DNA of 64,000 bases from Senegalia massiliensis. GTDB lineage: Bacteria; Bacillota; Clostridia; Tissierellales; SIT17. The position numbers and the translations under genes were made by a program. The notes under the pieces were generated by a model. That model was given only the letters and a program-made list of their open reading frames with translations. It was not told where the DNA came from and did not search any database. Location of the stretch: NCBI RefSeq assembly GCF_009911265.1, contig NZ_QXXA01000007.1:124001-188000 (forward strand), given 5' to 3'. Shown here piece after piece: positions 1,057 through 33,045 of the stretch (position 1 is the stretch's first letter; every line of letters begins with the position of its first letter).

Positions 1057-3696
1057 TTATTTATTTAACTGAGATTCTACTAATGATTTAACTAAATCTA
1101 AAGCTTCTTCAATTTTAGAAGATTCATTTCCTCCAGCTTGAGCCATATTAGGTCTTCCACCTCCACCTCCTCCGGTTATCTTTGCAACTTCTCTTATTAT
1201 ATTGCCACAATGAATACCAGATTTAACTGCATCTTCAGTAGCAGTAGCTATAAAATTCACTTTTCCATTTTTTTCAGTAGATAAGACTATTACTGCTTTG
1301 TCTAATTTTTCTTTAATTTTATCTCCTAATTGTCTTAAGCCATCAATATCAATACCGTCTATTTTCTTTGTTACTACATTTACACCATTTATATTATAAA
1401 CATTTTCTAAAATATTATCTAATTTTGAATTTGCAAGTTTAGAATTAAGACTATCTATTTGTTTTTGTAAGTTTCTTACTTCATCCATTATATCATGAGC
1501 CTTATCTATTAAATTATCTTTATTAGTTTTCAAAACATCTGATAGAGTATTTAGTTTATCGTTAAGTGACAAATTAAATTCGTATGCTTTCCTTCCAGTT
1601 ATTGCTTCAATTCTTCTAACACCTGATGCTATTCCTGATTCTGTTAATATTTTAAACATACCTATTTGACTAATATTATTAACATGAGTTCCTCCACATA
1701 ATTCAATTGTATAATCATCCATTTTTACTACTCTTACTTTTTCACCATATTTTTCATCAAATAATGCAGTTGCTCCCATATCTTTTGCCTTATTAATAGA
1801 AGTTTCTACTACTTCTACACCTAATGAATTCCAAATCTTTTCATTGACTTCTCTTTCTATTTTATTTAATTCATCTTTAGTTAAAGATTCAAAATGAGTA
1901 AAGTCAAATCTAAGTCTATCATCTGTAACAAGAGAACCAGCCTGATTTACATGTTGTCCTAAAGTATTTTTCAATGCTTTGTGAAGTAAATGTGTTGCAG
2001 AATGATTTCTTGCTATATCTAGTCTTCTATTTCTATCTACATGTGCTTCTAAGCTATCTCCAATTTTAAGATGTCCATGTCCTACATTAACTAAATGTAG
2101 TAACTTATCATTCTTCTTCTGAGTATCTATTACATATGCCTTAAACTTATCATTTTTAAATATTCCTTTATCTCCTACTTGACCTCCACTTTCTGCATAA
2201 AAAGGACTATTTTCTAATAATACATACCCTTCTTCATTTTGACTTAAAGTATCTATTGATTGACTGCCCTTTATAATGGCTATGACTTTTGATTCAGTTG
2301 ATAATTTTTCATAACCTTCAAATCTGGTTTTTGTATTAATTTTAAAATTAAAATCAGCATCACTGTCCCAATTGTTTTTGTTATCTTTATCTCTTGCACT
2401 TCTTGCTCTATTTTTTTGATTTTCCATCTCTAAATTAAACTGTTCTTCGTCTACATCTAATTTTTCATCTTCTAAAATTTCTTTAGTTAAATCTAATGGA
2501 AAACCATAAGTATCATAAAGTTTGAATGCCTTATATCCATTTAGAATTGTTTCATTATTATTTTTCATATCATCAATATAATTTTTTAATATTTCAATAC
2601 CTTGATCTATTGTTTCTTCAAACTTATCTTCTTCAATCTTTATAATTTTTTTGATTTGTAATCTTTTATCTTCTAAATTACTATAAAATTCTTTCCAATT
2701 TTCTATTACAACATCTGACAAATTAGATAAAAAGCTATTTTTTATACCTAATAACTTACCATGTCTAGATGCACGTCTGATAAGTCTTCTTAAAACATAA
2801 CCTCTTCCTTCATTACTTGGTATTACTCCATCAGATACTAAGAAACATATTGCACGTATATGATCAGTTATTACTCTAATTGATACATCATCTTTATTAT
2901 TGTTTTTATATTTTTTGTTTGTAATTTTTTCTATTTCTTTTATTATAGTTCTAATCGGTTCTATCTCAAAAATATTATCTGCATCATTTAAAACAGCTGT
3001 TATTCTTTCAAGCCCCATACCTGTATCTATATTTGGATTAAGAAGTTCTGAATAGTTTCCTAGTTCATCTTTATCGAATTGTGAAAATACTAAGTTCCAA
3101 ACTTCTACAAACCTATCACATTCACAACCTGGTTTGCAGTTTTCATCTCCACAACTATATTTTTCTCCTCTATCTATATAGATTTCTGAAGATGGACCAC
3201 AAGGTCCTACTTCAAGTTCCCAAAAATTATCCTCTTTTCCTAATCTCACTATTTTATTTTTAGAAACACCTATTTCATTATTCCAAATATTGTATGCTTC
3301 ATCATCGTCTAAATATACTGATACCCAAAGTTTTTCCTTTGATATATTCAGTTGTTTTGTCATAAACTCCCAAGCCCAATTTATTGCTTCTCTTTTAAAA
3401 TAATCACCAAATGAAAAGTTACCTAACATTTCAAAAAAAGTGCCGTGCCTATCTGTCTTACCAACATTTTCTATGTCACTTGTTCGTACACATTTTTGAC
3501 ATGTAGCCATTCTGTTTTTTGGAGGTTTTTTAGTGCCAAGAAAATATGGTTTTAAAGGTGCCATTCCAGCAATTATTAAAAGTAAATTTTTATCATCCTT
3601 TGGCACAAGTGAAAAACTATTGGTTACTAAGTGTCCTTTATTTTCAAAGAAATCTAAGTATTTTTTTCTAATCTCATGTAAATTATATTTTTCCAT
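1057..3696 (-). CDS. alaS: Alanine--tRNA ligase
   Basis: Charges tRNA-Ala with alanine in the cytosol and edits mischarged Ser/Gly. The 879-residue length is typical. The N-terminal class II catalytic core holds the KTDRHGTFFEMLGN block and motif 3 NIDTGMGLERI near residue 225; GRGYVLRRLIRR is the tRNA-recognition segment. The editing domain has HSATHLLHK near 565 and the zinc-binding CGGTHV near 667. The C-terminal DHHA1 region ends with GGGGGGRPNMAQAGG near 843. A cysteine-rich insertion (CGDENCKPGCEC) sits in the catalytic half, as in several clostridial AlaRS. The ATG is preceded by GGGAGAG. Expression is predicted to be controlled by the upstream alanine T-box, so that uncharged tRNA-Ala permits readthrough. 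Confidence 0.98.
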   Translation of the reverse strand: MEKYNLHEIRKKYLDFFENKGHLVTNSFSLVPKDDKNLLLIIAGMAPLKPYFLGTKKPPKNRMATCQKCVRTSDIENVGKTDRHGTFFEMLGNFSFGDYFKREAINWAWEFMTKQLNISKEKLWVSVYLDDDEAYNIWNNEIGVSKNKIVRLGKEDNFWELEVGPCGPSSEIYIDRGEKYSCGDENCKPGCECDRFVEVWNLVFSQFDKDELGNYSELLNPNIDTGMGLERITAVLNDADNIFEIEPIRTIIKEIEKITNKKYKNNNKDDVSIRVITDHIRAICFLVSDGVIPSNEGRGYVLRRLIRRASRHGKLLGIKNSFLSNLSDVVIENWKEFYSNLEDKRLQIKKIIKIEEDKFEETIDQGIEILKNYIDDMKNNNETILNGYKAFKLYDTYGFPLDLTKEILEDEKLDVDEEQFNLEMENQKNRARSARDKDNKNNWDSDADFNFKINTKTRFEGYEKLSTESKVIAIIKGSQSIDTLSQNEEGYVLLENSPFYAESGGQVGDKGIFKNDKFKAYVIDTQKKNDKLLHLVNVGHGHLKIGDSLEAHVDRNRRLDIARNHSATHLLHKALKNTLGQHVNQAGSLVTDDRLRFDFTHFESLTKDELNKIEREVNEKIWNSLGVEVVETSINKAKDMGATALFDEKYGEKVRVVKMDDYTIELCGGTHVNNISQIGMFKILTESGIASGVRRIEAITGRKAYEFNLSLNDKLNTLSDVLKTNKDNLIDKAHDIMDEVRNLQKQIDSLNSKLANSKLDNILENVYNINGVNVVTKKIDGIDIDGLRQLGDKIKEKLDKAVIVLSTEKNGKVNFIATATEDAVKSGIHCGNIIREVAKITGGGGGGRPNMAQAGGNESSKIEEALDLVKSLVESQLNK

Positions 3697-3717: not shown

Positions 3718-3948
3718 TAAAAAAGACAAAGACTCTGTCCGCATTTAGGGACGAGCTTTGCCGTGGTACCACCCTATTTAAAAATAGTTTACTCTTGGAT
3801 TTATAACGGTTTTATCCGAATTCTTTTTTAAAGAATTAAGCTTAAGAGTAGCTTCTATATATTCTTATCAAGTATTTTCACCAAACATACTCTCTCTAAA
3901 GATAATTATATATATACTTTTCTCTATCATAGCTATCAATATGTTTTT
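3718..3948 (-). promoter_or_regulatory. T-box riboswitch, alanine-specific, upstream of alaS
   Basis: The minus strand carries the hallmark T-box sequence AGGGTGGTACCACG (3762-3775), overlapping a terminator: GGCAAAG-CTC-GTCC pairs with GGAC-GAG-CTTTGTC (3725-3762) and is followed by TCTTTTTT. Upstream are an AGAGAGAG purine run, a stem I-like region and the specifier-loop candidate AGAAGCTACTC, whose GCT (3850-3852) is an alanine codon followed by a purine. This fits an ON switch in which uncharged tRNA-Ala stabilises the antiterminator. It fills the 289-base gap between alaS and the AI-2E gene. Confidence 0.94.
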
Positions 3949-15912: not shown

Positions 15913-17277
15913 CTAAATTTCTAAACTCTGTTTTAAAAGTTTAAGTGCAGCTTCACTATATTCAGTAGATAGCACTCCTAAAGATGCCATAATATAATTA
16001 TTGTCAACCAAAACTGAAGCCTCACTAGTTGGGAATAAATCATCCCCTTTATTACTTTTAGCTATAGATTTCATTATTTCAACTCTATTAGGAAGTCTTG
16101 TTAAAGCACCACCAGTACCAATAATATATTTTATATTAGTTAAGTCTTTACCTTCAGCAACAGTTTTTTTGCCAGATGCACCATATAGAGCTCTAAATTT
16201 ACCAGCATGTCTTTTTACTGAAGTAATAACTGCTTCTTTTGTAAGTTCTTCTACAAACTTTTTCTCTAAGTCCTTAGTAGGTATAGGTTTATGGTTTTCA
16301 ATTAAGTCATCTAATTCTTCAGTAGATATTGAGAGCTTGTTAGATAAAGTATCTTTACCTATTCTATCTACAATATTTTTCATATTTACATATACACCTA
16401 AATCACCTTCTACTGTTCTTTTAGCTAAAGGCTCAGGACTAATTAAAATTCTATTTACCTCTTCACTACCTTCTGTAACAGAATGCAAGTCAGTAGTTGC
16501 TCCTCCAACATCTAGTGTAATAAGATCTCCTATATCTTCTTTTAAAAGTTTAGAAGCGGTCATTACTGCTCCAGGTGTTGGCATTATGTGACCATTTACC
16601 ATTTCTTTTACTTTTTTCATTCCTGGTGCATGAATAATATGCTCTTCAAATACATCTTGAATTACTTTCCTTGTAGGTTCAATGTTTAATTTGTCAATTT
16701 TCGGATAAACATTTTCTACAATATATAATTTACCAGGATAATCTTCAAATATTAATTTTATTTCTTCTTGATTTTCTATGTTCCCAGCATATATAACAGG
16801 AACATCAAATTTTAAATCTGCAATCTTTTCAGCATTATATATTGAAGTATCACGTTCTCCATAATCTACTCCGCCTGCAATTAATATTATATTAGGTTTT
16901 ATTTCTTTTAATTTATTTATATCTGTTCTTCTAATCTTTCCAGCAGTTACTTGATGAATATTTGCTCCAGCTCCAAGTGCCGCTTCTTTTGCAGCTCTTA
17001 CAGTCATATCATATACAAGTCCATGAACTGTCATACGAAGTCCTCCAGCTGCTGAGCTAGTTGCAACTAATTTATCATATTCTATGGTCTCTATATTTAA
17101 ATTTCCTTTTAAATTTTCAATTGCATTATTAAGACCAATATTTACATCACCTTCATCCACTGTTGTTGCAGCTTGCCCCTGCCCAATAAATTTGGGCTGG
17201 GAGCTGAATATTCCATTAAATGCATTTATCACTGTAGTAGTACTTCCTATTTCAGCAACTAAAACATTAATTTTCAT
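15913..17277 (-). CDS. GlmL/MutL-related ornithine degradation protein (ATPase, likely B12-enzyme repair factor)
   Basis: A 454-residue ASKHA-fold ATPase of the glutamate mutase L family: phosphate-binding loops VAEIGSTTTVIN at residues 7-18 and TLDVGGATTDLHS near 263, plus NIILIAGGVDYGERD. In clostridial glutamate and ornithine mutase clusters this protein is thought to reactivate the adenosylcobalamin enzyme by exchanging damaged cofactor; that is family inference, not shown here. It overlaps the end of oraE by 11 nt, implying tight coupling to the B12 subunit. Not DNA mismatch repair MutL despite the shared name. Confidence 0.9.
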   Translation of the reverse strand: MKINVLVAEIGSTTTVINAFNGIFSSQPKFIGQGQAATTVDEGDVNIGLNNAIENLKGNLNIETIEYDKLVATSSAAGGLRMTVHGLVYDMTVRAAKEAALGAGANIHQVTAGKIRRTDINKLKEIKPNIILIAGGVDYGERDTSIYNAEKIADLKFDVPVIYAGNIENQEEIKLIFEDYPGKLYIVENVYPKIDKLNIEPTRKVIQDVFEEHIIHAPGMKKVKEMVNGHIMPTPGAVMTASKLLKEDIGDLITLDVGGATTDLHSVTEGSEEVNRILISPEPLAKRTVEGDLGVYVNMKNIVDRIGKDTLSNKLSISTEELDDLIENHKPIPTKDLEKKFVEELTKEAVITSVKRHAGKFRALYGASGKKTVAEGKDLTNIKYIIGTGGALTRLPNRVEIMKSIAKSNKGDDLFPTSEASVLVDNNYIMASLGVLSTEYSEAALKLLKQSLEI

Positions 17278-19480
17278 TTTTTTTCCTTCTCTCTTTTACT
17301 AAGGCTGTAGCTACATGAATTCCTTTAGTACCTCTACCAAAACCTGCATCCATTCCATTCTTTTCAGCAATTTCTGGTGTTACTTGTGTACCTCCTGCAA
17401 GTATTACTAATTTATCACGTATACCTTTTTCTATTGCTAAATCATGAATATTTTTCATGTTTTTATAATGAACATCATCATGACTAATAATTGTAGAAGC
17501 AAGTATTGCATCTGCATTTAATTCTATAGCTGCATCTACAAGTTTTTCTACAGGAACTGAAGTTCCAAGATAGTGTACATCTATTCCATATTTTTCTATT
17601 CCACCATGTTTTATGTCAATGATTTCTCTAAGTCCTACAGAGTGTTCATCTTCACCAACTGTACCTGCAACTATTGTCATTGGGTTATTGTTGATTTCTT
17701 CCCTTATTTCATCTTCAGTCATAACCTGAGGCTTTGGAGGGATTACTAATTCATCTAAATCAATAGCAAATGGCACTCTACCTTTTATTTCTACTCTTGT
17801 ACCTTCTGCTTGTTGCATAACTTCTTTATGAATCATTTCAACATCAAGTAAGCCCATCTTTTTCCCTACTTCTATAGCTGCAAATTCAGCAGTTCTTTCA
17901 TCTACAGGTAAAAATAAAGTAGTTTGTACTATTCCATCACCTTTCCATTCCATCTCTGGTTTAATTTTAGATGACTCTCTTAATTCTTCTGTTTCAGCAA
18001 GTCTTAAATTAACATTATCATTTTCATCTAGTTCATCTATATAGATTATTTTATCAGGATCTTTAAATGTATCTCCATCAATTAATTTTGAAGGATCATC
18101 TTTTGCATCTTCATTATACTGCTCTATATTATTATACCCAAAGAATGCAGTTACTGGTGCCATATAATCTTCATCTCTCTCAAATATAGTACCTCTTCCG
18201 ATTCCTCCATCCATTTTTCTTGCAATTCCATCTCCATTTCTTTCAGGATATTCTCCAGAATCTACAAAGAAACCTTCTTCTACAGCTTTAAAATATCCAC
18301 CTACTTCTAATATTTCTTCCATAAATAATATAGCTCTTTCTTTTAATTCCCTTACTTTATCAGCCAATTCACCTTTATCTCTTTTAAGCTCTATCATCTC
18401 CATCAAGCCATCCATACCTACAAGAGCTTGTTTTGCTGTATCTGTTCCTTCTATATTATATATGTGCCACGGTACATTTCTGCCCTCATCAGGAGTAATT
18501 GTAGATTGTATCTCAGCACGTGTTAATTTTGATATTAATAAATTTAAAGTATGAGTTACAGTTGCCTCTCTTGTAGAAGATCCCATATATTTTGTGTTTT
18601 GTTGAGCTCTCATCTTATATTCTCTAAATAACTCTCTTAACGCAACAGCATATGGTAAGTCAAGCCTCATACTTGGCGCTGGTGGAGCAGTTGGAGGAAC
18701 TGTTGATAATGCAATATCTTCTTTTTTCATTCCTGCTTTCACAGAAAAAATTGAATTTAATGCATGTTGAACCATTAGTTCTGGCATAACTTTCCATGCT
18801 TCTCTTGCAGTAGCATTTGCATTATGAGCTCCATCTATTTGAACTATTCCAGCCCACGCCATTACTTTTTTTGCATTTGCAGCATCTACAAATGATCTAA
18901 TCATATTTATATTTCTATAAAGAACATTGTATTGTGGATCCTGATGGGCACCATTTACACCTTCTTCTGCAAACATAACTGCTATTTCAGGTCCTGCTAC
19001 ACCACTTACATAAGAATGGTAGTTTATTGGTCTTCCAACTTCATCTTCTATTATATCTAAAGCTTTTCTTTGTGCTCTAACTTGTTTTCTAGTAATTGGT
19101 ATTCCGCCTATACCTTGTGGTGTTCCTTCAATTAAGCCATCAAAATGACTTTGTCCTGCAGTTCTAATTACCATTAAGTGATCTGCACCATGCCACGCTG
19201 CCATACGCATTCTTCTAATATCATCTTCAAATCTACCAGAAGCTATTTCTGTAGTAATTACATTTGTAGGTTGTGGATCTATATCATTAAAATAATGAGC
19301 AGATGGTAAAGATTGACTCTTATCTAGATTTTCTGCTGTATCATAATATTCAAATTGTCCTATTTTTCTTTTTTCTCCAGTTCCTTTTCTCCACTGCCAT
19401 CCTCTTCTTCGTGGCCTATATTTATCTAAATCTTTTAGTAATTCTTTTATATCTAATCTTTCATTTGGTTTAAGATTCAT
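17267..19480 (-). CDS. oraE: D-ornithine 4,5-aminomutase large subunit OraE (B12- and PLP-binding)
   Basis: Moves the terminal amino group of D-ornithine to C4, giving 2,4-diaminopentanoate, using adenosylcobalamin and PLP. The 737-residue protein has an N-terminal TIM-barrel region (residues to about 540) and a C-terminal Rossmann B12 domain with the D-x-H-x-x-G signature DEHSVG (D611, H613, G616) and the following GIDVHYLGTSVPVEKLVDAA. The ATG at 19480 is chosen because GGAGG lies 8 nt upstream; the longer GTG at 19489 overlaps the ribosome site. It overlaps oraS by 11 nt and the glmL-like gene by 11 nt. Confidence 0.96.
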   Translation of the reverse strand: MNLKPNERLDIKELLKDLDKYRPRRRGWQWRKGTGEKRKIGQFEYYDTAENLDKSQSLPSAHYFNDIDPQPTNVITTEIASGRFEDDIRRMRMAAWHGADHLMVIRTAGQSHFDGLIEGTPQGIGGIPITRKQVRAQRKALDIIEDEVGRPINYHSYVSGVAGPEIAVMFAEEGVNGAHQDPQYNVLYRNINMIRSFVDAANAKKVMAWAGIVQIDGAHNANATAREAWKVMPELMVQHALNSIFSVKAGMKKEDIALSTVPPTAPPAPSMRLDLPYAVALRELFREYKMRAQQNTKYMGSSTREATVTHTLNLLISKLTRAEIQSTITPDEGRNVPWHIYNIEGTDTAKQALVGMDGLMEMIELKRDKGELADKVRELKERAILFMEEILEVGGYFKAVEEGFFVDSGEYPERNGDGIARKMDGGIGRGTIFERDEDYMAPVTAFFGYNNIEQYNEDAKDDPSKLIDGDTFKDPDKIIYIDELDENDNVNLRLAETEELRESSKIKPEMEWKGDGIVQTTLFLPVDERTAEFAAIEVGKKMGLLDVEMIHKEVMQQAEGTRVEIKGRVPFAIDLDELVIPPKPQVMTEDEIREEINNNPMTIVAGTVGEDEHSVGLREIIDIKHGGIEKYGIDVHYLGTSVPVEKLVDAAIELNADAILASTIISHDDVHYKNMKNIHDLAIEKGIRDKLVILAGGTQVTPEIAEKNGMDAGFGRGTKGIHVATALVKERRKKNEN

Positions 19481-19844
19481 GACTTTCACCTCCGTTGAAT
19501 ACTTCTATTGCTCTATCCCATAATTCACCATCTAATAACTTAAGACCTGTTTCCCTTATACCTAAATCCTGATCTTTTGATAGCTTATATATTACATTTC
19601 CTGCTCCTTTTCCCATAAGACCTCTATCCATTACTCCTTCAACTATTGCCTTTGACTCTATACTAGAAAACCCCATTCTCATTATTACCGATCTCTCTAT
19701 TGATGGAGTAGTATTTTTTTCTGCTAATTCTACTATTGGATCCATTATTTTTTCTGCTAACTCCCAAAATTTATTTTCTAATTCTTTTTCAGATAAATTT
19801 TCTAAATGCTTTCTTCTTTGTTTGAAATCATCTTCTCTTTTCAT
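19470..19844 (-). CDS. oraS: D-ornithine 4,5-aminomutase small subunit OraS
   Basis: The 124-residue small subunit that holds OraE in the heterodimeric aminomutase. It is mostly helical: KQRRKHLENLSEKELENKFWELAEKI, then RSVIMRMGFSSIESKAIVEG and the Gly-rich GLMGKGAGNVIYKLS region expected for OraS. It contains no cofactor motif itself. Placement between ortB (18 nt upstream) and oraE (11-nt overlap) confirms the call. ATG 19844 follows GGAGGTG. Confidence 0.95.
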   Translation of the reverse strand: MKREDDFKQRRKHLENLSEKELENKFWELAEKIMDPIVELAEKNTTPSIERSVIMRMGFSSIESKAIVEGVMDRGLMGKGAGNVIYKLSKDQDLGIRETGLKLLDGELWDRAIEVFNGGESHES

Positions 19845-19861
19845 TTACTACACCTCCGTAA

Positions 19862-21277
19862 TTAGTTATCTTTTAATTTTTCAATCATACTTATTACAAA
19901 TTCTTTACTTGACTTTGTATCTTCAGCTAAAAACTCTATATCTTTTTCTGTAATTTCAATATCTTCATTATTTTTTAAGCAATTTTTGATATAAGACTTT
20001 TTAATTTTTTCTAAGTCCAAATCATCAACTTTTATAAAGCTTGGATCCTTTGGTAAGATTATATTTTCACCTGCGACTTCATCCTTAGGATCACCTATTT
20101 TTATATCTACTCCATTATCCTTTGCAAAAGATAGTTGAGGCTGAATATGTTTTCCTGCTCCTGTATATTCAGTTTCTTGTACTACTATAATTTTATCTTC
20201 ATCTAATTCTTGTGCTATAGAAAATGCTGCAGCTAAAGAGGTATTTCCAGCTGGTCCTCTTTCAAGACCCTCAACTTGAGCTAATGCTTCTGTAATATAG
20301 AATACTTCTCCTTGATTAACTGTTACATATCTATCCATATATCTTAAAGGTCTTGCAGCAGAACGAGGTACATCAGATCTATCAGGCCATGTTGCAAATG
20401 GAATACCAAATCCTGTATGTCCTGTAGTGAATGATTTTTTATTAAATTGTGTATCACTAGCCATGTGAAGACCTTTTAAATTTACACTTGCCCCTATAAT
20501 TTCAACATTATCAGCTCCTGCTTTTATAAGTCCTCTTGCTGTTCCTGTAAGATTTCCGCCTCCTGCATTTGTTGCAACTACAACATCAGGATCTCTTCCT
20601 TCTAATTCCCTAAATTGCATAGCAATTTCATACCCTAATGTTTCTACACCGGCTATACCAAATGGTGTATATAATGAAGCATTAAAATATCCTGTTTCTT
20701 CAAGCAATTTTAAGAATGTATAGAACAATTCTGGACCTACAGTTAATTGTAATACTTCTGCTCCATATGCTTCACATTTCCTAGCCTTTTCTACTATCTC
20801 TGGCTGACCTACTCCCCTAGAATCATAACACTCTTGAACTATTATACATTTAAGTCCAAGCATAGCTGCTTGACTTGCAACAGCTGCACCATAATTACCA
20901 CTTGTTGCTGCTATAACACCTTTATAGCCATTTTTCTTAGCATGATATACACTAGTAGCTGCTCGTCTTGCTTTATAACTACCTGATGGATTTGAAGCTT
21001 CATCTTTTATAAATATTCTAGCCCCTTTTCCTTCAGGTGCAAATTTTCTTGCAAGTTTAGTGATATTTTTTAATTCTAAAAGTGGTGTATTTCCAATTCC
21101 TGTTTCTTTTTGTGTTCTCTGAATTTCAGATAAGTCATATCCAGTTTTATGCATCATATCATTGTAATCGAAACGTATTCCTTTAGTTTCAAAAGCTTCG
21201 TAATCTATCCCTACAGCTTTTTTCATTATTTCATTTTTTCTTTCCATTACTGATTTATAGCTCATATCTTTATTCAT
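19862..21277 (-). CDS. ortB: 2-amino-4-oxopentanoate thiolase subunit OrtB (PLP)
   Basis: With OrtA it cleaves 2-amino-4-oxopentanoate with CoA to D-alanine and acetyl-CoA, the energy-yielding step. The protein is a fold-type II PLP enzyme resembling threonine synthase: internal lysine in ASNPSGSYKARRA near residue 120, GYKGVIAATSGNYGAAVASQAAM, a Gly-rich phosphate loop VVATNAGGGNLTGTARGL and GPAGNTSLAAAFS. Start ATG 21277 has AGGTGG 8 nt upstream; the GTG codons at 21286-21289 are within the ribosome site. It overlaps ortA by 8 nt. Confidence 0.95.
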   Translation of the reverse strand: MNKDMSYKSVMERKNEIMKKAVGIDYEAFETKGIRFDYNDMMHKTGYDLSEIQRTQKETGIGNTPLLELKNITKLARKFAPEGKGARIFIKDEASNPSGSYKARRAATSVYHAKKNGYKGVIAATSGNYGAAVASQAAMLGLKCIIVQECYDSRGVGQPEIVEKARKCEAYGAEVLQLTVGPELFYTFLKLLEETGYFNASLYTPFGIAGVETLGYEIAMQFRELEGRDPDVVVATNAGGGNLTGTARGLIKAGADNVEIIGASVNLKGLHMASDTQFNKKSFTTGHTGFGIPFATWPDRSDVPRSAARPLRYMDRYVTVNQGEVFYITEALAQVEGLERGPAGNTSLAAAFSIAQELDEDKIIVVQETEYTGAGKHIQPQLSFAKDNGVDIKIGDPKDEVAGENIILPKDPSFIKVDDLDLEKIKKSYIKNCLKNNEDIEITEKDIEFLAEDTKSSKEFVISMIEKLKDN

Positions 21278-21578
21278 TATCTTCACCACCTTCTAAAATA
21301 CCTCTTAATTGCCTTCCAATATAGAGTAATTCAGGAACAGACTTTCCATAACTATGAGTATAATATGGATCAATTTCTAGTAATTGTCCTTTTATTCTTC
21401 TTCCTATATATGTTTCAACTTCTACTTGATCTCCTATTTCAGCATTTTCATTTATCAAAAATCCCTTGTCCCACATTTCAAGTGGTACTTTTTTTGTATC
21501 ATCAGGTACTTGTGGGGCTCTCTCACTTGATTTTAAGACTATATTATATATCCTTACCCAATCACCTTTTTTTGCCAT
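21270..21578 (-). CDS. ortA: 2-amino-4-oxopentanoate thiolase subunit OrtA
   Basis: The 102-residue partner of OrtB. Sequence features: a beta-rich start AKKGDWVRIYNIVL, the conserved SSERAPQVPDDTKKVPLEMW block and a C-terminal IDPYYTHSYGKSVPELL. No cofactor site is visible. It lies 9 nt after ord and overlaps ortB, matching the order in known ornithine fermenters. ATG 21578 is preferred (AGGGA 6 nt upstream) over the GTG one codon earlier. Confidence 0.95.
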   Translation of the reverse strand: MAKKGDWVRIYNIVLKSSERAPQVPDDTKKVPLEMWDKGFLINENAEIGDQVEVETYIGRRIKGQLLEIDPYYTHSYGKSVPELLYIGRQLRGILEGGEDNE

Positions 21579-21587
21579 CACATATCC

Positions 21588-22631
21588 CTACTTTCTTATT
21601 AATTCTCTTATATCTCCCATTATTGCTCTTGGAACTGGTAAATCTATCATTGTCTTAAGACCTGATGGAGCATTTATAACATGTGGAATCATATTTACAC
21701 ACATGGCTATAGTTCCAAGTCCACCTTCAACTTCTGGTTTTATAGACATATTAACTTCTGGCGTTCCTTTAATTCTTATATAATCCCCAGTATGAGTTCC
21801 TTCCATTTCTGGTTCTATTTGTTGAGGATGCTTCATATCAATTTTTACCTCTCCATCAACATAGCCTTGACCCGTCATATTAACACCTGCAACATTACCA
21901 GCTTTTGCAAATCCATATGGAGATTGTCTATCTACATTAGTAACAATTGGCTTCATTTGTTGTTCAAATTTTTCAACAGGCCATCCAATTGCATCGCCTA
22001 TCATATTAATTGATTCTTTAAATCCTACATGCCCTGCTAACGTTCCATCCTTAACACCTTTTTCAAATTCATCAACTGTTATACCTACTCCTTGTTCCTC
22101 CATTACAGCTGAACCAAATGGAGAAAGACTATTAACTCTTTCTGCTTCAATGTGTTCAACATCTGTCATACACCCTGTAAGACACACTACTAGTAAATCC
22201 ATTATTAATCCTGGATTAATACCTGTCCCTAACACAGAAACGTTATTCTCTTTAGCTATTTCATCTAGCTTTTTAGATAATTCTGGATTTTGAGCTTTAG
22301 GATATGCCATCTCTTCAGCAGTGGAAATTACATTAATTTTATTTTCTAATAATTGCTTTAATTTAGGAAACGTTTTCTCTGTAAAAGAATCAGTAGCAAC
22401 TAAAGCTATATCAGGTTTTGTACTCATAACTGATTCAATATCTGAATTAATTATTACTTCATTATGATTTTTATTTTCAACACCTAGCACTTCAAATATG
22501 CTTTTCCCAACTCTCTTTTCGTTTCTATCACATACACCTACTATTTCGACACCTTTTTTCTTTAATAACATTTTTGCCATTCCACTTCCCATGGCACCAA
22601 ATCCCCATATAATCACTTTAATTTTTTCCAT
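21588..22631 (-). CDS. ord: 2,4-diaminopentanoate dehydrogenase
   Basis: Oxidatively deaminates 2,4-diaminopentanoate to 2-amino-4-oxopentanoate with NAD(P)+. The 347-residue protein has an N-terminal dinucleotide-binding fold (IWGFGAMGSGMAKML, residues 8-22, then VGVCDRN) and a C-terminal domain with GTGINPGLIMDLLVV and SPFGSAVMEEQGVG, as in dihydrodipicolinate reductase-like DAPDH. It is the first gene of the ornithine operon, 29 nt from the predicted sigma-54 transcription start; GGAGGTG lies before ATG 22631. The gene order ord-ortA-ortB-oraS-oraE matches the chemistry. Confidence 0.95.
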   Translation of the reverse strand: MEKIKVIIWGFGAMGSGMAKMLLKKKGVEIVGVCDRNEKRVGKSIFEVLGVENKNHNEVIINSDIESVMSTKPDIALVATDSFTEKTFPKLKQLLENKINVISTAEEMAYPKAQNPELSKKLDEIAKENNVSVLGTGINPGLIMDLLVVCLTGCMTDVEHIEAERVNSLSPFGSAVMEEQGVGITVDEFEKGVKDGTLAGHVGFKESINMIGDAIGWPVEKFEQQMKPIVTNVDRQSPYGFAKAGNVAGVNMTGQGYVDGEVKIDMKHPQQIEPEMEGTHTGDYIRIKGTPEVNMSIKPEVEGGLGTIAMCVNMIPHVINAPSGLKTMIDLPVPRAIMGDIRELIRK

Positions 22632-26727: not shown

Positions 26728-27183
26728 TTACTTTTCATCAAGTAATTTTTTTAATTCATCCATAAAAGTATTAATATCTTTAAACTGTCTATATACTGAA
26801 GCAAATCGTACATAAGCTACTTCATCTTTATCCTTTAACTTTTCCATAATCATTTGACCTATTTTTGTAGTGGATATCTCTTTTTCCATAGAATTACTAA
26901 TAGATTTCTCAATGTCATTTACTATTTTTTCCATTTGCTCAACAGACACAGGTCTTTTTTCACAGGCTCTAATAATACCATTTAAAACTTTATTTCTATT
27001 ATATGGTTGTCTAGTTCCATCTTTTTTAATCACTACAATAGGTATTTCTTCAATTTTTTCATAAGTTGTAAATCTTTTATTACATTTAGAACACTCTCTA
27101 CGTCTTCTTATAGCATGTCCTTCTTCTGTAGGTCTAGAATCTACAACTTTAGTCTCATAATATTCGCAATAAGGGCATATCAT
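26728..27183 (-). CDS. nrdR: Transcriptional repressor NrdR
   Basis: A 151-residue nucleotide-dependent repressor of ribonucleotide reductase genes. The N-terminal zinc ribbon has CPYC (residues 3-6) and CSKC near 31-34, with [20 protein letters not shown] between, followed by an ATP-cone domain ([27 protein letters not shown]). Length is typical. The ATG at 27183 is chosen because GGAGTG is 6 nt upstream and homologues begin with M-x-CP; the 27201 start would add six atypical residues. No nrd gene or NrdR-box pair is visible in this window, so its targets are elsewhere. Confidence 0.95.
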
Positions 27184-27245
27184 ATAATTCACTCCAAACA
27201 TTTATATTCTAAATATATTATAATTTATATAAGTTATTTTGTCTA

Positions 27246-27286
27246 ATAGACAATAATAAATCTCAGGCAGCCCTGAGATTTATTAT
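27246..27286 (-). terminator. Terminator of the gcv-folD operon
   Basis: A 15-bp stem (AATAAATCTCAGG paired across loop CAGC, 27253-27286) ends the operon immediately after the stop of the UGA-containing gene and before nrdR. Confidence 0.85.
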
Positions 27287-27589
27287 TTAAATATTTAATT
27301 TATATCTGAAAATTAATGTATGTTTTCCTTTTCTCTCTCTAACATCACCTTTTAAAATTTCAACTTCTTCTCCAGTATCGAGGTTGATATTCTTGCCTTC
27401 AATTTCTTTAAAAGTTTTTCTAACTTCTTCAGAATTTTCAGCTTCTACTTCCTCTTTAACGCCCCAGGCGCTTGCAAGTACACTTGCCATGTTTCAAGTA
27501 TCACAAGCGTCTTTTTTCCTTTGTTCTATTGATTGTTTTATTATATCTTTCAATGCTACTATTGGCTCTTTTCCATATGGAAAATTCAT
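27287..27589 (-). CDS. Candidate small selenoprotein (CxxU motif, in-frame UGA at 27494-27496)
   Basis: The frame runs from ATG 27589 to TAA 27287 with one interruption, a TGA as codon 32, giving 100 residues if read as selenocysteine. The ATG follows the folD stop with no gap (TAG-ATG), and its ribosome site GGAGGAAAATAG lies in the folD end, so translation clearly starts there, not at the ATG after the TGA, which has no ribosome site. Before the TGA: MNFPYGKEPIVALKDIIKQ, then ...KKDACDT; after it: NMASVLASAWGVKEEV. Cys29 and the UGA form C-x-x-U, a thioredoxin-like redox pair. Hairpins follow at 27455-27490. I do not recognise the family. Alternatives: a nonsense mutation or sequencing error. 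Confidence 0.7.
27455..27490 (-). promoter_or_regulatory. Possible bacterial SECIS element downstream of the in-frame UGA
   Basis: Within 40 nt after the UGA the minus-strand RNA can form AGCGCC-UGG-GGCGUU (loop starting 28 nt after the UGA, G in the loop's second position) or, closer, GCAAG-UGUA-CUUGC (loop from the 12th nt). Bacterial SECIS hairpins lie in this window with a G near the loop start. Judged by eye only. Confidence 0.45.
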
Positions 27590-28438
27590 CTATTTTCCTC
27601 CTTTTACTTTCATTGCTGATTTTACAGTATTGTAAATTAACATTGTTATAGTCATTGGTCCAACTCCACCTGGTACTGGTGTAATATGACCTACAGTTTC
27701 TTTTACATCTTCAAAGTCTACATCTCCAGCTAATTTACCATCTACTCTATTGATACCTACATCTATAACTGTAGCACCTTTTTTAACCATGTCACGCTTT
27801 ACAAAATTTGCTTTTCCTATAGCAGCTACAAGTATATCTGCTTCTTTAGTAATTTCTTTCAAGTTTTTAGTTCTAGAATGACATATTGTAACTGTAGCAT
27901 TTTTTTGTAACAATAATAATGAAATTGGTTTTCCTACAATATTACTTCTACCTAGTACAACTACTCTTTTTCCTTCAACATCAATGTCATTACTTTCTAT
28001 AAGTTTAATTATCCCATGAGGAGTACAAGGGATGAATGTGTCTTCTCCTACAAGTAATTTCCCTGCATTTATAGGATGAAATCCATCTACATCTTTTTCA
28101 ATAGATATTTTCTCAATTACTTTTTTTTCATCTATATGTGCAGGTAATGGTAATTGTACTAATATTCCATGTATGGTGTCATCATTATTTAATTTCTCAA
28201 TCAAATCTAATAATTCACTCTCTGAAACATCTTTATCTAAGGAGTGAACTTCAGATTTCATTCCTAATTTTTTACATGCTTTATCTTTACTTCTTACATA
28301 GGATTGAGATGCAGGATTCTCTCCAACTATTATTACTGAAAGGCCTGGAACAATCCCCTTTTCTTTAAGTTCATTTATTTTAATCTGTAAGTCTTCTCTT
28401 ATATTATTTGAAACTTCTCTTCCATTTATAATTTGCAA
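27590..28438 (-). CDS. folD: Bifunctional methylenetetrahydrofolate dehydrogenase/cyclohydrolase
   Basis: Converts 5,10-methylene-THF to 10-formyl-THF. The 282-residue protein has the catalytic Y47-x-x-x-K51 in SYVRSKDKACKKLG, the HGILVQLPLPAH folate segment, PCTPHGII, the NAD(P) site VVLGRSNIVGKPISLLLLQ and the family ending DVDFEDVKETVGHITPVPGGVGPMT-type block (cited in part). Start is TTG 28438 with AGGTGGTG upstream. It follows gcvPB by 16 nt, so methylene-THF made by glycine cleavage is processed by the next gene in the operon. Confidence 0.97.
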   Translation of the reverse strand: MQIINGREVSNNIREDLQIKINELKEKGIVPGLSVIIVGENPASQSYVRSKDKACKKLGMKSEVHSLDKDVSESELLDLIEKLNNDDTIHGILVQLPLPAHIDEKKVIEKISIEKDVDGFHPINAGKLLVGEDTFIPCTPHGIIKLIESNDIDVEGKRVVVLGRSNIVGKPISLLLLQKNATVTICHSRTKNLKEITKEADILVAAIGKANFVKRDMVKKGATVIDVGINRVDGKLAGDVDFEDVKETVGHITPVPGGVGPMTITMLIYNTVKSAMKVKGGK

Positions 28439-28454
28439 ATTAACACCACCTAAT

Positions 28455-29906
28455 TTAATTCCATTTTAATTTTAAATTTCTTGCTGCTCTAACTTCATCC
28501 ACTCTTCTAACTGGAGCATTATGAGGAGCTTCTTTTAGAAGTTCAGGATTACTTTCTGCTTCTTTTGCTATTTTAATCATAGCATCTATAAAGTTATCTA
28601 AGGTTTCTTTGCTCTCTGTTTCTGTAGGTTCTATCATTAATGCTTCTTTAACTATTAATGGGAAATAAACAGTAGGAGGATGATAACCATAATCTAATAA
28701 TCTTTTAGCTACATCCATTGTATTAACTTCTAGACTATCTTCTTTTAAACCAGCTAATACAAACTCATGTTTACATACTGTTTTTATTGGTAAGTTATAA
28801 TGTTCTTTTAGTTTATTCATCATATAATTTGCATTTAATACTGCAGTTTCACTTACTTTCTTTAATCCATTGCCTCCAAGAGCAAGTATATAAGTATACG
28901 CCCTTAGATTAACAGCATAATTACCATAAAACCCTTTTACTTTTCCTATAGATTCTTTTCTATCATAATCTAAAACAAATTTATCATTCTTCTTTTCCAC
29001 TACAGGTACAGGTAAGAATTTAGCTAAATGTTCCTTTATTCCAACAGCTCCACTACCTGGACCTCCACCTCCATGAGGAGTTGAAAAAGTTTTGTGAAGA
29101 TTAAAATGCATAACGTCAAATCCCATATCACCTGGCCTTACTCTTCCCATTATAGCATTCATATTTGCACCATCATAATATAAAAGCCCTCCTGCTTCAT
29201 GAACAAGCCCTGCTATTTCTTTCATATCTTTTTCAAATAATCCTAATGTATTTGGATTTGTAAGCATAAGTCCAGCCACTTTATCATCTAAAATCTTCTT
29301 TAAATTTTCAACATCTACTAAGCCTTCATTTGAAGATTTTACTTCTACAATATCATAACCTGCCATTGCAGCAGTAGCAGGATTTGTTCCATGAGCAGAA
29401 TCTGGAACTATTATTTTTGTTCTATGATTATCATTATTTGCATTATGATATGCTTTTATAAGCATAATACCTGTTAATTCGCCATGAGCTCCAGCAGCTG
29501 GCTGTAGAGTAACTCTATCCATTCCAGATATTTCAGCTAAATGATTAGATAGATTATACATTAACTCAAGTGATCCTTGAACAGTATCTTCTGATTGATA
29601 AGGATGAATATTTGTTAAACTATCCATATTTGCCATATCTTCATTTATTTTTGGATTATATTTCATAGTACAGGAGCCTAATGGATAAAATCCTGTATCA
29701 ATACTATAATTTAATTGTGATAAATTAGTATAATGTCTTACAACATCTAATTCGGATACTTCTGGAAGTTCCAAATCTTTATCACTTAAATATTCTTTTG
29801 GAATAAGTTGTTCTATTTCTTTTTCCAATACATCATTTTTTGGAAGGCTATATGCCTTTCTACCTTTTTTTGATAGTTCAAAAATTAATTTATCATAATT
29901 TTTCAT
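28455..29906 (-). CDS. gcvPB: Glycine dehydrogenase (decarboxylating) subunit 2
   Basis: PLP-bearing half of the split P-protein, which decarboxylates glycine and passes aminomethyl to lipoyl-GcvH. The 483-residue protein carries the PLP lysine in [19 protein letters not shown] (about residue 270), preceded by [20 protein letters not shown] and the conserved [16 protein letters not shown]. The C-terminal [17 protein letters not shown] is typical. ATG overlaps the gcvPA stop by one base (TAATG), giving equal synthesis of both subunits. Confidence 0.97.
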
Positions 29907-31249
29907 TATAGCACCTCCAATACGGAAACTAATTTATCTATCTCTTCTTTAGTTCTCTTTTCAGTTACTGCAAACAATATTGAATTATCAATATCATTAT
30001 AATCCTTACCTAAATCATAACCACCAAGAATTTTATTTTCTAGTAACTTTTCATTTACTTCATTAACTTTTATATCACTTTTAACAGCAAACTCTTTAAA
30101 AAATGGTTTATTAAATACTGGTTTAAATTTACCACTTTCAGTTATTTTATCAAATGCATAATGAGCTTTTTGTAAAGATTGAATTGCAACTTCTTTTAAT
30201 CCTTCTTTACCCATTGTAACTAAATATATTGCTGACATTAAAGCATTTAGCCCTTGATTTGAACATATATTTGATATAGCTTTATATCTTCTTATATGTT
30301 GTTCACGAGCTTGTAAAGTAAGAACAAATGATCTTTTATTATCCTTGTCAACTGTTTCTCCTACTATTCTTCCAGGTATTTTTCTTGCTAATTTCTGCTT
30401 AACTGCCATAAACCCTAGTGTAGGACCACCAAAATTCAATTTATTACCTAAGCTTTGACCTTCTCCTACTACAATATCAGCACCTAAATCACCTGGAGAT
30501 TTTAAAACACCTAATGAAATAGGGTCAACATAAGTTATAAACTTAGCTTTTTTAGTATTATGAGTGATTTCTTCAATCTCTTTCAAATTCTCGATAATTC
30601 CAAAAAAGTTTGGATTCTGTACTATTATACCCGCTGTATTGTCATCAGCAACTTCTTTTAATTTATCTACATCTGTTACTCCATCTTTCATATCAACTTC
30701 TATTAGTTCAATATCTCTAAATTTCATATAAGTTTTTACAACTTTCCTTACTTCAGGATGAACTGTTTTTGAAATGATTACTTTATTTTTTCTAGTTACA
30801 TCTGCTGCTACAAGACCTGCTTCAGCACATGCAGTAGGGCCATCATACATAGAAGCATTTGAAACATCCATGCCAGTAAGATTAGATATAAGAGTCTGAT
30901 ATTCAAAAATCACCCTAAGTGTTCCTTGGCTTATTTCAGCTTGATAAGGAGTATAAGACGTTAAAAATTCCCCTCTAGATGCTATATGACCTATTAAAGA
31001 TGGTATATAATGATCATACATGCCTGCTCCTAAAAAACAAGTTAAGTCATCAATAGTTTGATTTTTATTTCCAAGCTTTTTCATATGATTTCTTATTTCT
31101 AATTCAGATAATGAATCATCTATTTTTAAATCTCTATCTAGTCTTAAAGACTTTGGAATATCCTTAAATAAATCATCAATAGAATTAGCACCTATTACAT
31201 CTAACATCTCATCTCTATCTTGTTTAGTATTAGGTATATATCTATGCAT
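29906..31249 (-). CDS. gcvPA: Glycine dehydrogenase (decarboxylating) subunit 1
   Basis: The 447-residue non-lysine half of the P-protein. Landmarks: [20 protein letters not shown] at the start, [42 protein letters not shown] and [14 protein letters not shown]-like segment (here [14 protein letters not shown]). Start ATG 31249 lies one base after the gcvH stop, with GAGGAA in the gcvH end; a longer frame to 31279 is inside gcvH and improbable. Operon order gcvT-gcvH-gcvPA-gcvPB is usual for clostridia. Confidence 0.97.
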
Positions 31250-31250
31250 A

Positions 31251-31634
31251 TTATTCCTCCTCTGCACAGAATTTTTCATAATCTTCTTTATCCATTAAAT
31301 CATCTAATTTAGCGTTATCTGCCATTTCCACTTTTATAAACCAACTTCCAAAAGCATCTTCATTTACAAGTTCTGGAGAGTCTTCTAACTCTTCATTTAC
31401 TTCAATTACAGTTCCAGATACTGGCATATAGATATCTGATGCAGTTTTAACAGATTCTACTACTCCAAAAGATTCTTCCTTTTCTAACTCATCATCTACT
31501 TCTGGTAATTCCACATAAACTATTTCACCTAAATTATGTTGTGCATGGTCTGTTATACCTATTAACGCCTTATTACCTTCTACCTTTACCCACTCATGAT
31601 CACTTGAATAATATAAACCTTCTACTGTTTTCAT
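31251..31634 (-). CDS. gcvH: Glycine cleavage system H protein
   Basis: The 127-residue lipoyl carrier moving the aminomethyl group between P and T proteins. The lipoylation lysine is K63 in [18 protein letters not shown]; the fold is the small barrel starting [13 protein letters not shown] and continuing [19 protein letters not shown]. The C-terminus has [10 protein letters not shown] follows GGAGGAATTTTA. It lies 20 nt after gcvT. Confidence 0.97.
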
Positions 31635-31654: not shown

Positions 31655-32761
31655 TTATTTTTTATTTTGTTTTAAAAATTTTGTATTAACAACTTTAACT
31701 TTTGCAAATCTTTTTCTAATTTTGATATCAAATTCTGTTCCAAGATCTGCATAATCAATATCAACCATTGCTTTACCAATATTTTTCTTTAATGTAGGTG
31801 AATGATAACCTGTTGTAACAAAACCAATTTTTTTATCATCCTTATATACTTCATAACCACTTCTTGGTATGCCTTTATCTATCATTTCAAACCCTACTAT
31901 TTTTCTTTTTAATCCCTCTTCTTTTTGTTTCTTTAAAGCTTCTTTCCCTATAAAATCAGACTCTTTATTTAATTTAACAAAAAATCCTAATCCTGCTTCT
32001 AATGGAGTTATATCTTTAGATAACTCATTTCCATATAAAGGCAAATTAGCTTCAAAACGAAGGGTATCTCTTGAACCAAGTCCTGCTGGTTTTATTCCTT
32101 CTTCTTTGCCAACTTCTAATAATTTTTCCCAAACTTCTACAATATCATTATTCGCTAAATATATTTCAAAACCATCTTCCCCTGTGTAACCAGTTCTTGA
32201 TACTATAGCTTTTTTTCCATCAACAAATACATTTCTATCAAGATAGAAAAATTTAATATCAGATAAATTTTTGTCAGTAATTTTTTGTAATATTTGTTCA
32301 GCCTTAGGTCCTTGAATAGCTATTTCAGAATATTTGTCTGATAAATCATTAATTTCCACATGATAATCTTTTCTGTTTTCTTTTATCCATTCATAATCCT
32401 TTTCTAAATTACTTGCATTTACTACTAAAAAATAATGGGTGTCAGAAAATTTATAAACAAGTAAATCATCTACTACTCCACCATCTGGATAGAGAAAAAA
32501 TGTGTAAAGAATTTGATTGTTCTTAAGTGTTGTTATATCGTTTGTTACTAAATAACCTACAAAGTCTTTTGCATCATCTCCTTTTATTTCAATTTCTCCC
32601 ATATGAGAAACATCGAAAATTCCTGCATCACTTCTAACTGCTTCATGCTCCAAAGTAAGACCTTCAAATTCTACAGGTAATTTCCATCCATAATAATCTG
32701 TCATTTTTCCGTTTAACCTTAGATGAGAATCATATAAAGCTGTTTTTTTTGAATCTACCAT
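31655..32761 (-). CDS. gcvT: Aminomethyltransferase (glycine cleavage T protein)
   Basis: Transfers the one-carbon unit to THF and releases ammonia. The protein starts MVDSKKTALYDSHLRLNGKM, followed by the folate-binding GWKLPVEFEG, AGIFDVSHMGEIEIKG and C-terminal FVTTGYHSPTLKKNIGKAMV. The ATG at 32761 is chosen: AAGGAG is 7 nt upstream (an adjacent ATG at 32764 is possible). Extending to 32842 would put 26 codons over the riboswitch terminator, which is not credible. It is the first gene after the glycine riboswitch. Confidence 0.96.
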   Translation of the reverse strand: MVDSKKTALYDSHLRLNGKMTDYYGWKLPVEFEGLTLEHEAVRSDAGIFDVSHMGEIEIKGDDAKDFVGYLVTNDITTLKNNQILYTFFLYPDGGVVDDLLVYKFSDTHYFLVVNASNLEKDYEWIKENRKDYHVEINDLSDKYSEIAIQGPKAEQILQKITDKNLSDIKFFYLDRNVFVDGKKAIVSRTGYTGEDGFEIYLANNDIVEVWEKLLEVGKEEGIKPAGLGSRDTLRFEANLPLYGNELSKDITPLEAGLGFFVKLNKESDFIGKEALKKQKEEGLKRKIVGFEMIDKGIPRSGYEVYKDDKKIGFVTTGYHSPTLKKNIGKAMVDIDYADLGTEFDIKIRKRFAKVKVVNTKFLKQNKK

Positions 32762-32815
32762 CATATCACTCCTTAAATATTTTTCCCCCTTGAAAAGGTT
32801 TTCATTAAGGGACAT

Positions 32816-33045
32816 TAAAAAAAGAAATATAAAAACATACAAAATATATGCCTTATATTTCTCTGTATCTAGCCTGAGAGCTTTACATATTAATGTATTT
32901 CTCCTTCGGCGTCGCTAAAGCGATCTCTCCAGAGTTTCATCAAATAACGATCCTTTTACCTGAGAGTTTCTATAAAAATTATGGCGAATTTTATATATTG
33001 CTCCATCGGCTATCTATTTAAAGATATCTCTCGTTATTCTCATCT
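32816..33045 (-). promoter_or_regulatory. Tandem glycine riboswitch with intrinsic-terminator platform
   Basis: Minus strand shows two glycine aptamers: first (about 33045-32944) with CGAGAGAT, GCCGATGGAGCAA and CTCTCAGGTAAAAGGA; second (about 32937-32860) with CTGGAGAGAT, GCCGAAGGAG and GCTCTCAGGC. Aptamer-2 P1 (CTCTG 32930-32934 with CAGAG 32861-32865) overlaps the 5' arm of a downstream hairpin AGAAATATAA / TTATATTTCT (32823-32862) followed by T7. So glycine binding should break the terminator: an ON switch for gcv. It fills most of the gap between gcvT and ylmC. Confidence 0.95.

Follow-up and report, generated by a model that had tools for sequence, protein, structure and literature searches.

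A PrpU-like selenoprotein gene closes a glycine cleavage operon of Senegalia massiliensis at the place where lipoamide dehydrogenase usually lies

When glycine is decarboxylated, the lipoyl arm of GcvH is left reduced, and lipoamide dehydrogenase (lpd) normally reoxidizes it with NAD+. Eubacterium (Peptoclostridium) acidaminophilum has been reported to be without dihydrolipoamide dehydrogenase, and its glycine decarboxylase operon encodes PrpU, an 11-kDa selenoprotein with a CxxU motif (PMC4056300) that is also present in Clostridium litorale (PMC4118067). In 2014, PrpU was suggested to link 'glycine decarboxylase to glycine reductase with the thioredoxin system' (PMC4056300). On the glycine reductase side, an excerpt of PMC3091704 gives the chain as thioredoxin reductase, thioredoxin, GrdA and GrdB. 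Among open-access papers, PrpU was found as a selenoprotein only in PMC4056300 and PMC4118067, with most subscription papers outside this search, and a 2026 review (PMC13188914), which tabulates 119 families of prokaryotic selenoproteins, does not name this family in the accessible part of its table.

The window analyzed here, a stretch of 64,000 nucleotides from the genome of Senegalia massiliensis (G000; other genomes and loci carry G and L numbers), contains a PrpU-like selenoprotein gene at 27287-27589 on the minus strand. Its frame runs from 27589 down to 27290 and comprises 100 codons followed by a TAA stop at 27289-27287. The in-frame TGA at 27494-27496 (-) is codon 32 and forms the motif C29-D-T-U32 (CxxU); with this TGA translated as U, the product has 100 residues and a mass of 11.46 kDa, computed with Cys in place of Sec. 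The start ATG stands immediately after the folD stop TAG (27592-27590) with AAAGGAGGAAAA upstream of it, in which the last stretch of folD supplies a Shine-Dalgarno GGAGG (27590-27604 (-)). The internal ATG at codon 34 is preceded by ACGCTTGTGATACTTGAAAC, where there is no Shine-Dalgarno sequence. The first-pass annotation, which did not state the strand, had described a single TGA at codon 32 of a 100-codon frame, a ribosome site within folD and an ATG touching the folD stop, and all of these are confirmed. It had also placed an operon terminator right after the stop. A perfect 16-bp inverted repeat does begin at the stop codon (27252-27287 (-), arms 27252-27267 and 27272-27287, 4-nt loop, -23.4 kcal/mol, z -7.5), but this terminator-like hairpin is missing from the terminators listed by the terminator scan because it has no classical T-run. 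Beyond the hairpin lies nrdR (26728-27201 (-)), and a gene that looks NrdD-like by eye stands near the lone selenoprotein copy of G011 (L033); a tie to ribonucleotide reduction was set aside as a probable chance.

The selenoprotein gene is the last of a riboswitch-led gcvT-gcvH-gcvPA-gcvPB-folD operon on the minus strand. Tandem glycine riboswitch aptamers (32861-33043 (-); Rfam RF00504, 57.3 and 46.3 bits) precede the genes, which were named by NCBIfam: gcvT (31655-32842 as listed), gcvH, encoding the lipoyl carrier and putative redox partner (31251-31634), gcvPA (29906-31279), gcvPB (28455-29906) and folD, encoding methylene-THF dehydrogenase / cyclohydrolase (27590-28438). The true start of gcvT is probably later than listed, since the family match starts near residue 31. 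The window also holds the ornithine oxidation genes OraE, OrtB, OrtA and Ord (NCBIfam; 17267-22631 (-)) with more genes of the cluster around them, which suggests that the host ferments amino acids in the Stickland manner. A T-box leader (3744-3939 (-)) lies before an alaS-like gene (1057-3696, labeled by eye).

The 100-codon frame with its one TGA is a real selenoprotein gene. A first scan of genome contigs gave three homologues of 49-59% identity, all of which have TGA at this codon too. We then used profile searches of overlapping samples, comprising 249 genomes of the order, 391 of the class and, with a wider profile, 398 of the phylum. Matches were obtained in 8/249, 9/391 (G000 included) and 6/398 genomes, respectively. 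In the phylum sample only G000 and G662 are real; the other four weak matches were judged to be chance and were not counted, three of them, from genomes of one genus, lying in a larger protein that we take to be Ku-like and the fourth in an unrelated frame. The total is 21 copies in 19 genomes (17 numbered genomes and two Alkaliphilus records), including the window's genome, with L019 (G329), which is the same contig as L005, counted once. All 21 copies carry TGA at the same column and none carries Cys, and a chance TGA is excluded by its retention across the 19 genomes. In an alignment of 19 rows this is the sole all-TGA column, and five residues never vary (Cys29, Sec32, Val44, Leu92 and Tyr96). 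Upstream of the TGA, the differences at codon positions 1/2/3 were 0.43/0.36/0.59, and downstream of it 0.46/0.37/0.62, a similar pattern on both sides, as expected from one translated frame.

The machinery for selenocysteine is in place as well. In the host genome, selA shares a 12-kb stretch with selB, selD and a tRNA-Sec gene (selC); the host grdA also has a TGA in its frame. An in-frame TGA (ASGUAAKIG) was found upstream of the frame first listed for selD (L008:8357-9322 (-) and upstream), indicating that the host SelD is itself a selenoprotein. Among the 17 numbered carriers, selB was above the cut-off in every one, compared with 157/249 order genomes. The selenoprotein proposed by the first-pass annotation is thus borne out, and the sel genes for which it had suggested looking are present. 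It had further anticipated homologues with either Cys or UGA at this column: homologues spanning the UGA exist, whereas none of the three samples (249 order, 391 class and 398 phylum genomes) yielded a Cys form. According to the accessible part of the deep-Sep paper (PMC12013277), that method's own filter may lose selenoproteins without Cys homologues, and an absence of this family from selenoprotein lists would fit such a loss. Given that the family is missing from the 2026 table and that its members matched no Pfam or NCBIfam model, we think that such genes probably often go unnoticed or receive a truncated annotation.

We also looked at RNA folding after the TGA, where a possible SECIS region spans 39 nt (27455-27493 (-)). 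This stretch folds more strongly than synonymous recodings in 20/20 sequences (mean z -1.67), compared with -0.42 to +0.19 for five other stretches under the same test. In the control set of 19 grdA genes, however, the test gave +0.15 after the TGA and -1.44 (18/18 negative) in an unrelated stretch. The test thus missed the grdA site, which should carry a SECIS, and signaled where none is expected, and we build no argument on the post-TGA fold in either direction. RNAalifold gave -4.4 kcal/mol on 20 sequences and -13.7 kcal/mol without five divergent rows, and Rfam at a low threshold returned only matches well under the gathering scores.

The window protein matches no Pfam family, and NCBIfam gave one family only, far under its cut-off. 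In searches of 19 members against NCBIfam and Pfam at E<=0.1, there was no match to SelW-like (PF10262), CC/Se motif (NF041239) or other modeled CxxU families. The AlphaFold model, built from four sequences (mean pLDDT 84.2, pTM 0.75), consists of a long helix (9-27), the CxxU loop, a short helix, a strand (42-48), a helix (50-63) and three more strands. Foldseek with this model found nothing at E<=0.001, and a PDB sequence search gave one chance row only (E 0.34). The structure rows from VIA, at Z 3.5-5.5, are a mixture of TusA-like, Alba-like, phage tail and other folds; candidates for a TusA/SirA-like or Alba-like fold are 8k1r_B (Z 5.0, 2.6 Å over 68 residues), 1udv_A (Z 4.9) and 3hz7 (Z 4.5), with unrelated rows reaching Z 5.5. 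None of the rows listed is named thioredoxin, which excludes nothing. Kinship to GrdA was ruled out, as hhalign gave a probability of 0.2% and none of the 19 members matched PF04723 in Pfam. The family tree is mostly unresolved. Two genomes have second, divergent TGA-containing copies away from gcv (L017 in G019 and L018 in G104), and L018 forms a very long branch.

The selenoprotein gene follows gcvPB, directly or past folD or fhs, in 16/21 copies, namely those of the window, G003 (L070), L003, L004, L034, L036, L037, L040-L047 and L049; at L003, L004 and L046 the gcvT-gcvH side is not shown. The five copies away from gcv are those of G011 (L033) and G570 (L048), the second, divergent copy of G019 (L035) and both copies of G104 (L038 and L039), which sit on contigs of ~5 kb. 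None of the 16 gcv-linked copies has lpd directly downstream, and the next genes are lipB-lipA in 7/16 and lplA in 3/16. We compared these loci with the gcvPB surroundings in 71 same-order genomes out of 128 that matched at E<=1e-80 (the 30 best loci, 40 hand-picked from further down the list with one repeat, and G019 and G020). Where the selenoprotein gene is missing from the gcv locus, lpd is the next recognized gene after gcvPB in 54/65 loci, and in 24 of these 54 it is the first frame downstream. Where the selenoprotein gene is present, lpd is next in 0/6. The hypergeometric probability of this contrast is 8.6e-5, a value that ignores kinship, the six loci falling in three families. Among the 11 loci without lpd, L122 ends 23 bases past gcvPB, so that its downstream side is unseen, and among the 65 is that of G011, which carries the selenoprotein gene elsewhere in its genome. 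In G451, outside the order, lpd lies within the gcv cluster, between gcvT and gcvH, beside the selenoprotein gene. A 165-aa gene without an NCBIfam match follows gcvPB in G159 (L138:6623-7117) and likewise in G160 (L073), holding the spot where the selenoprotein gene stands in G158 of the same genus.

GrdA is present in 17/17 carriers compared with 135/249 order genomes, though these counts are not independent because the carriers are related to each other. The tie to glycine metabolism that had been proposed from the window is supported. Within the window's genus, gcvPB and the selenoprotein gene occur together in G000 and G003 and are both missing from G001 and G002, although GrdA and selB are present in each of the four genomes. 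In the family f8, G019, G020 and G022 combine gcv, GrdA and the selenoprotein gene, while G021 has gcv-lipB-lipA and selB without GrdA and without the selenoprotein gene. Gcv, GrdA and selB are all present in G159 and G160, yet the selenoprotein gene is not, and the same holds for most genomes with all three. The selenoprotein is thus accessory, as G159 and G160 and its occurrence in only 8/249 order genomes indicate. Lipoamide dehydrogenase was found at E<=1e-50 in 13/17 carriers; those without a match are G268, G329, G400 and G420, with completeness of 97, 93, 98 and 84%, respectively. The window's genome has two lipoamide dehydrogenases above the cut-off and one weaker. Of the two above the cut-off, one belongs to a pyruvate dehydrogenase operon, and the second, located near an AhpD-like gene, is extended at its N-terminus by ~110 residues resembling a lipoyl domain (lipoyl and AhpD labels by eye).

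Conservation, genomic context and co-occurrence were established here by comparison, and from them we infer an electron relay. The place of the gene, where lpd usually lies, suggests that PrpU is an electron carrier from glycine breakdown. With lpd away from its usual place in these operons, PrpU would reoxidize the dihydrolipoyl H-protein instead: its S-Se bond in the CxxU motif would accept two electrons from GcvH by thiol-selenol exchange and could pass them on to the pool of thioredoxin and thioredoxin reductase and from there to GrdA of glycine reductase. On genomic grounds, we lean slightly toward the view that PrpU helps to reoxidize the dihydrolipoyl H-protein and sends electrons toward thioredoxin and glycine reductase. 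Against such a relay stand the lipoamide dehydrogenase matches in most carriers, the lpd within the gcv cluster of G451 and the copies found off gcv. A bolder version, in which PrpU is a Sec-dependent stand-in for the L-protein that takes the electrons of dihydrolipoyl-GcvH with no flavin or NAD and passes them via thioredoxin or directly to glycine reductase, is tentative and somewhat doubtful. If it were true, glycine fermentation would run as a closed thiol-selenol relay, and PrpU would also be a selenoprotein family for which no Cys form is known, of the sort that search methods requiring Cys homologues discard.

Other functions have to be weighed against this relay. The selenoprotein might serve the lipoylation or upkeep of GcvH, by maintaining the proper redox state of the lipoyl arm or of the machinery that attaches it, as the lipB-lipA or lplA genes downstream of some gcv-linked copies could suggest; we regard this as unlikely, because it leaves the tie to GrdA unexplained and G021 retains gcv-lipB-lipA without the selenoprotein gene. 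Small CxxU proteins commonly have redox roles, and the five copies away from gcv would suit a protein with a general thiol-selenol redox or antioxidant role whose gene is only a passenger of the gcv operon. The 16 copies at gcvPB, however, come from genomes of many families, and the gene and gcvPB are present or absent together in the window's genus, making this explanation less probable again. A GrdA-like role in carrying a carbon unit, with an intermediate of glycine or C1 metabolism bound to Se, would fit the CxxU motif that GrdA likewise has and the folD or fhs gene beside the selenoprotein gene (window, L049), but we consider it very improbable, as there is no GrdA profile similarity and folD and fhs neighbors are exceptions. 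That the TGA is an ordinary stop, leaving a peptide of 31 codons and an independent frame of 67 codons, would agree with the failure to find a Cys homologue in the three samples and with the SECIS test, whose grdA control failed, but is scarcely credible given the common TGA in every copy with a frame open on both sides, the coding pattern on both sides, the absence of a ribosome site before the internal ATG and the sel machinery in the host.

The preferred reading, PrpU as an electron carrier that relieves the reduced H-protein, bears on how electrons could pass from glycine decarboxylase to glycine reductase without the normal lipoamide dehydrogenase. What is new here is the place opposite lpd, the co-occurrence with GrdA and the lack of Cys forms in the genomes sampled; the link to thioredoxin was suggested in 2014 (PMC4056300). 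The gene is most likely of the PrpU kind, which would then be more widespread than the two published genomes, with likely relatives in 19 genomes. Their occurrence at the lpd place and together with GrdA makes the 2014 idea directly testable, and the carriers without a lipoamide dehydrogenase match are the hosts in which to look for the relay.

Among known systems, lipoamide dehydrogenase (L-protein, TIGR01350) follows gcvPB in the majority of related operons and would share with the selenoprotein the substrate dihydrolipoyl-GcvH, but it is a 460-residue FAD enzyme that works with NAD+ and has no kinship to the 100-residue selenoprotein. GrdA (PF04723) is likewise a CxxU selenoprotein of glycine metabolism; it differs in its length of ~155 residues, its separate operon and its lack of profile similarity. 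PrdC of proline reductase, as presented in the consulted excerpt of PMC3091704, also has a CxxU center proposed to pass electrons to a Stickland reductase, but it has 428 residues, is related to RnfC and uses NADH. The closest system is PrpU, and the protein, which the first-pass annotation had called undescribed, is not without precedent: PrpU of the same size, motif and operon has been published (PMC4056300, PMC4118067), and the match is one of description. A tblastn search with L027 against plasmid sequences gave no match. Two differences can be noted, in that the window has folD between gcvPB and the selenoprotein gene, unlike the published PrpU operon, and the window's genome encodes lipoamide dehydrogenases, one of them belonging to a pyruvate dehydrogenase operon, whereas E. 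acidaminophilum is reported to have none; we take the absence of dihydrolipoamide dehydrogenase as a trait of that host and not as defining PrpU. The PrpU operon includes formyl-THF synthetase, and L049 is alike, with gcvPB, formate-THF ligase (fhs) and then the selenoprotein gene. In their size of ~11 kDa, CxxU motif, operon with glycine decarboxylase genes, glycine-reductase hosts and proposed electron transfer, the two agree, and this likeness in size, motif and operon strongly suggests that the window protein is of the PrpU type.
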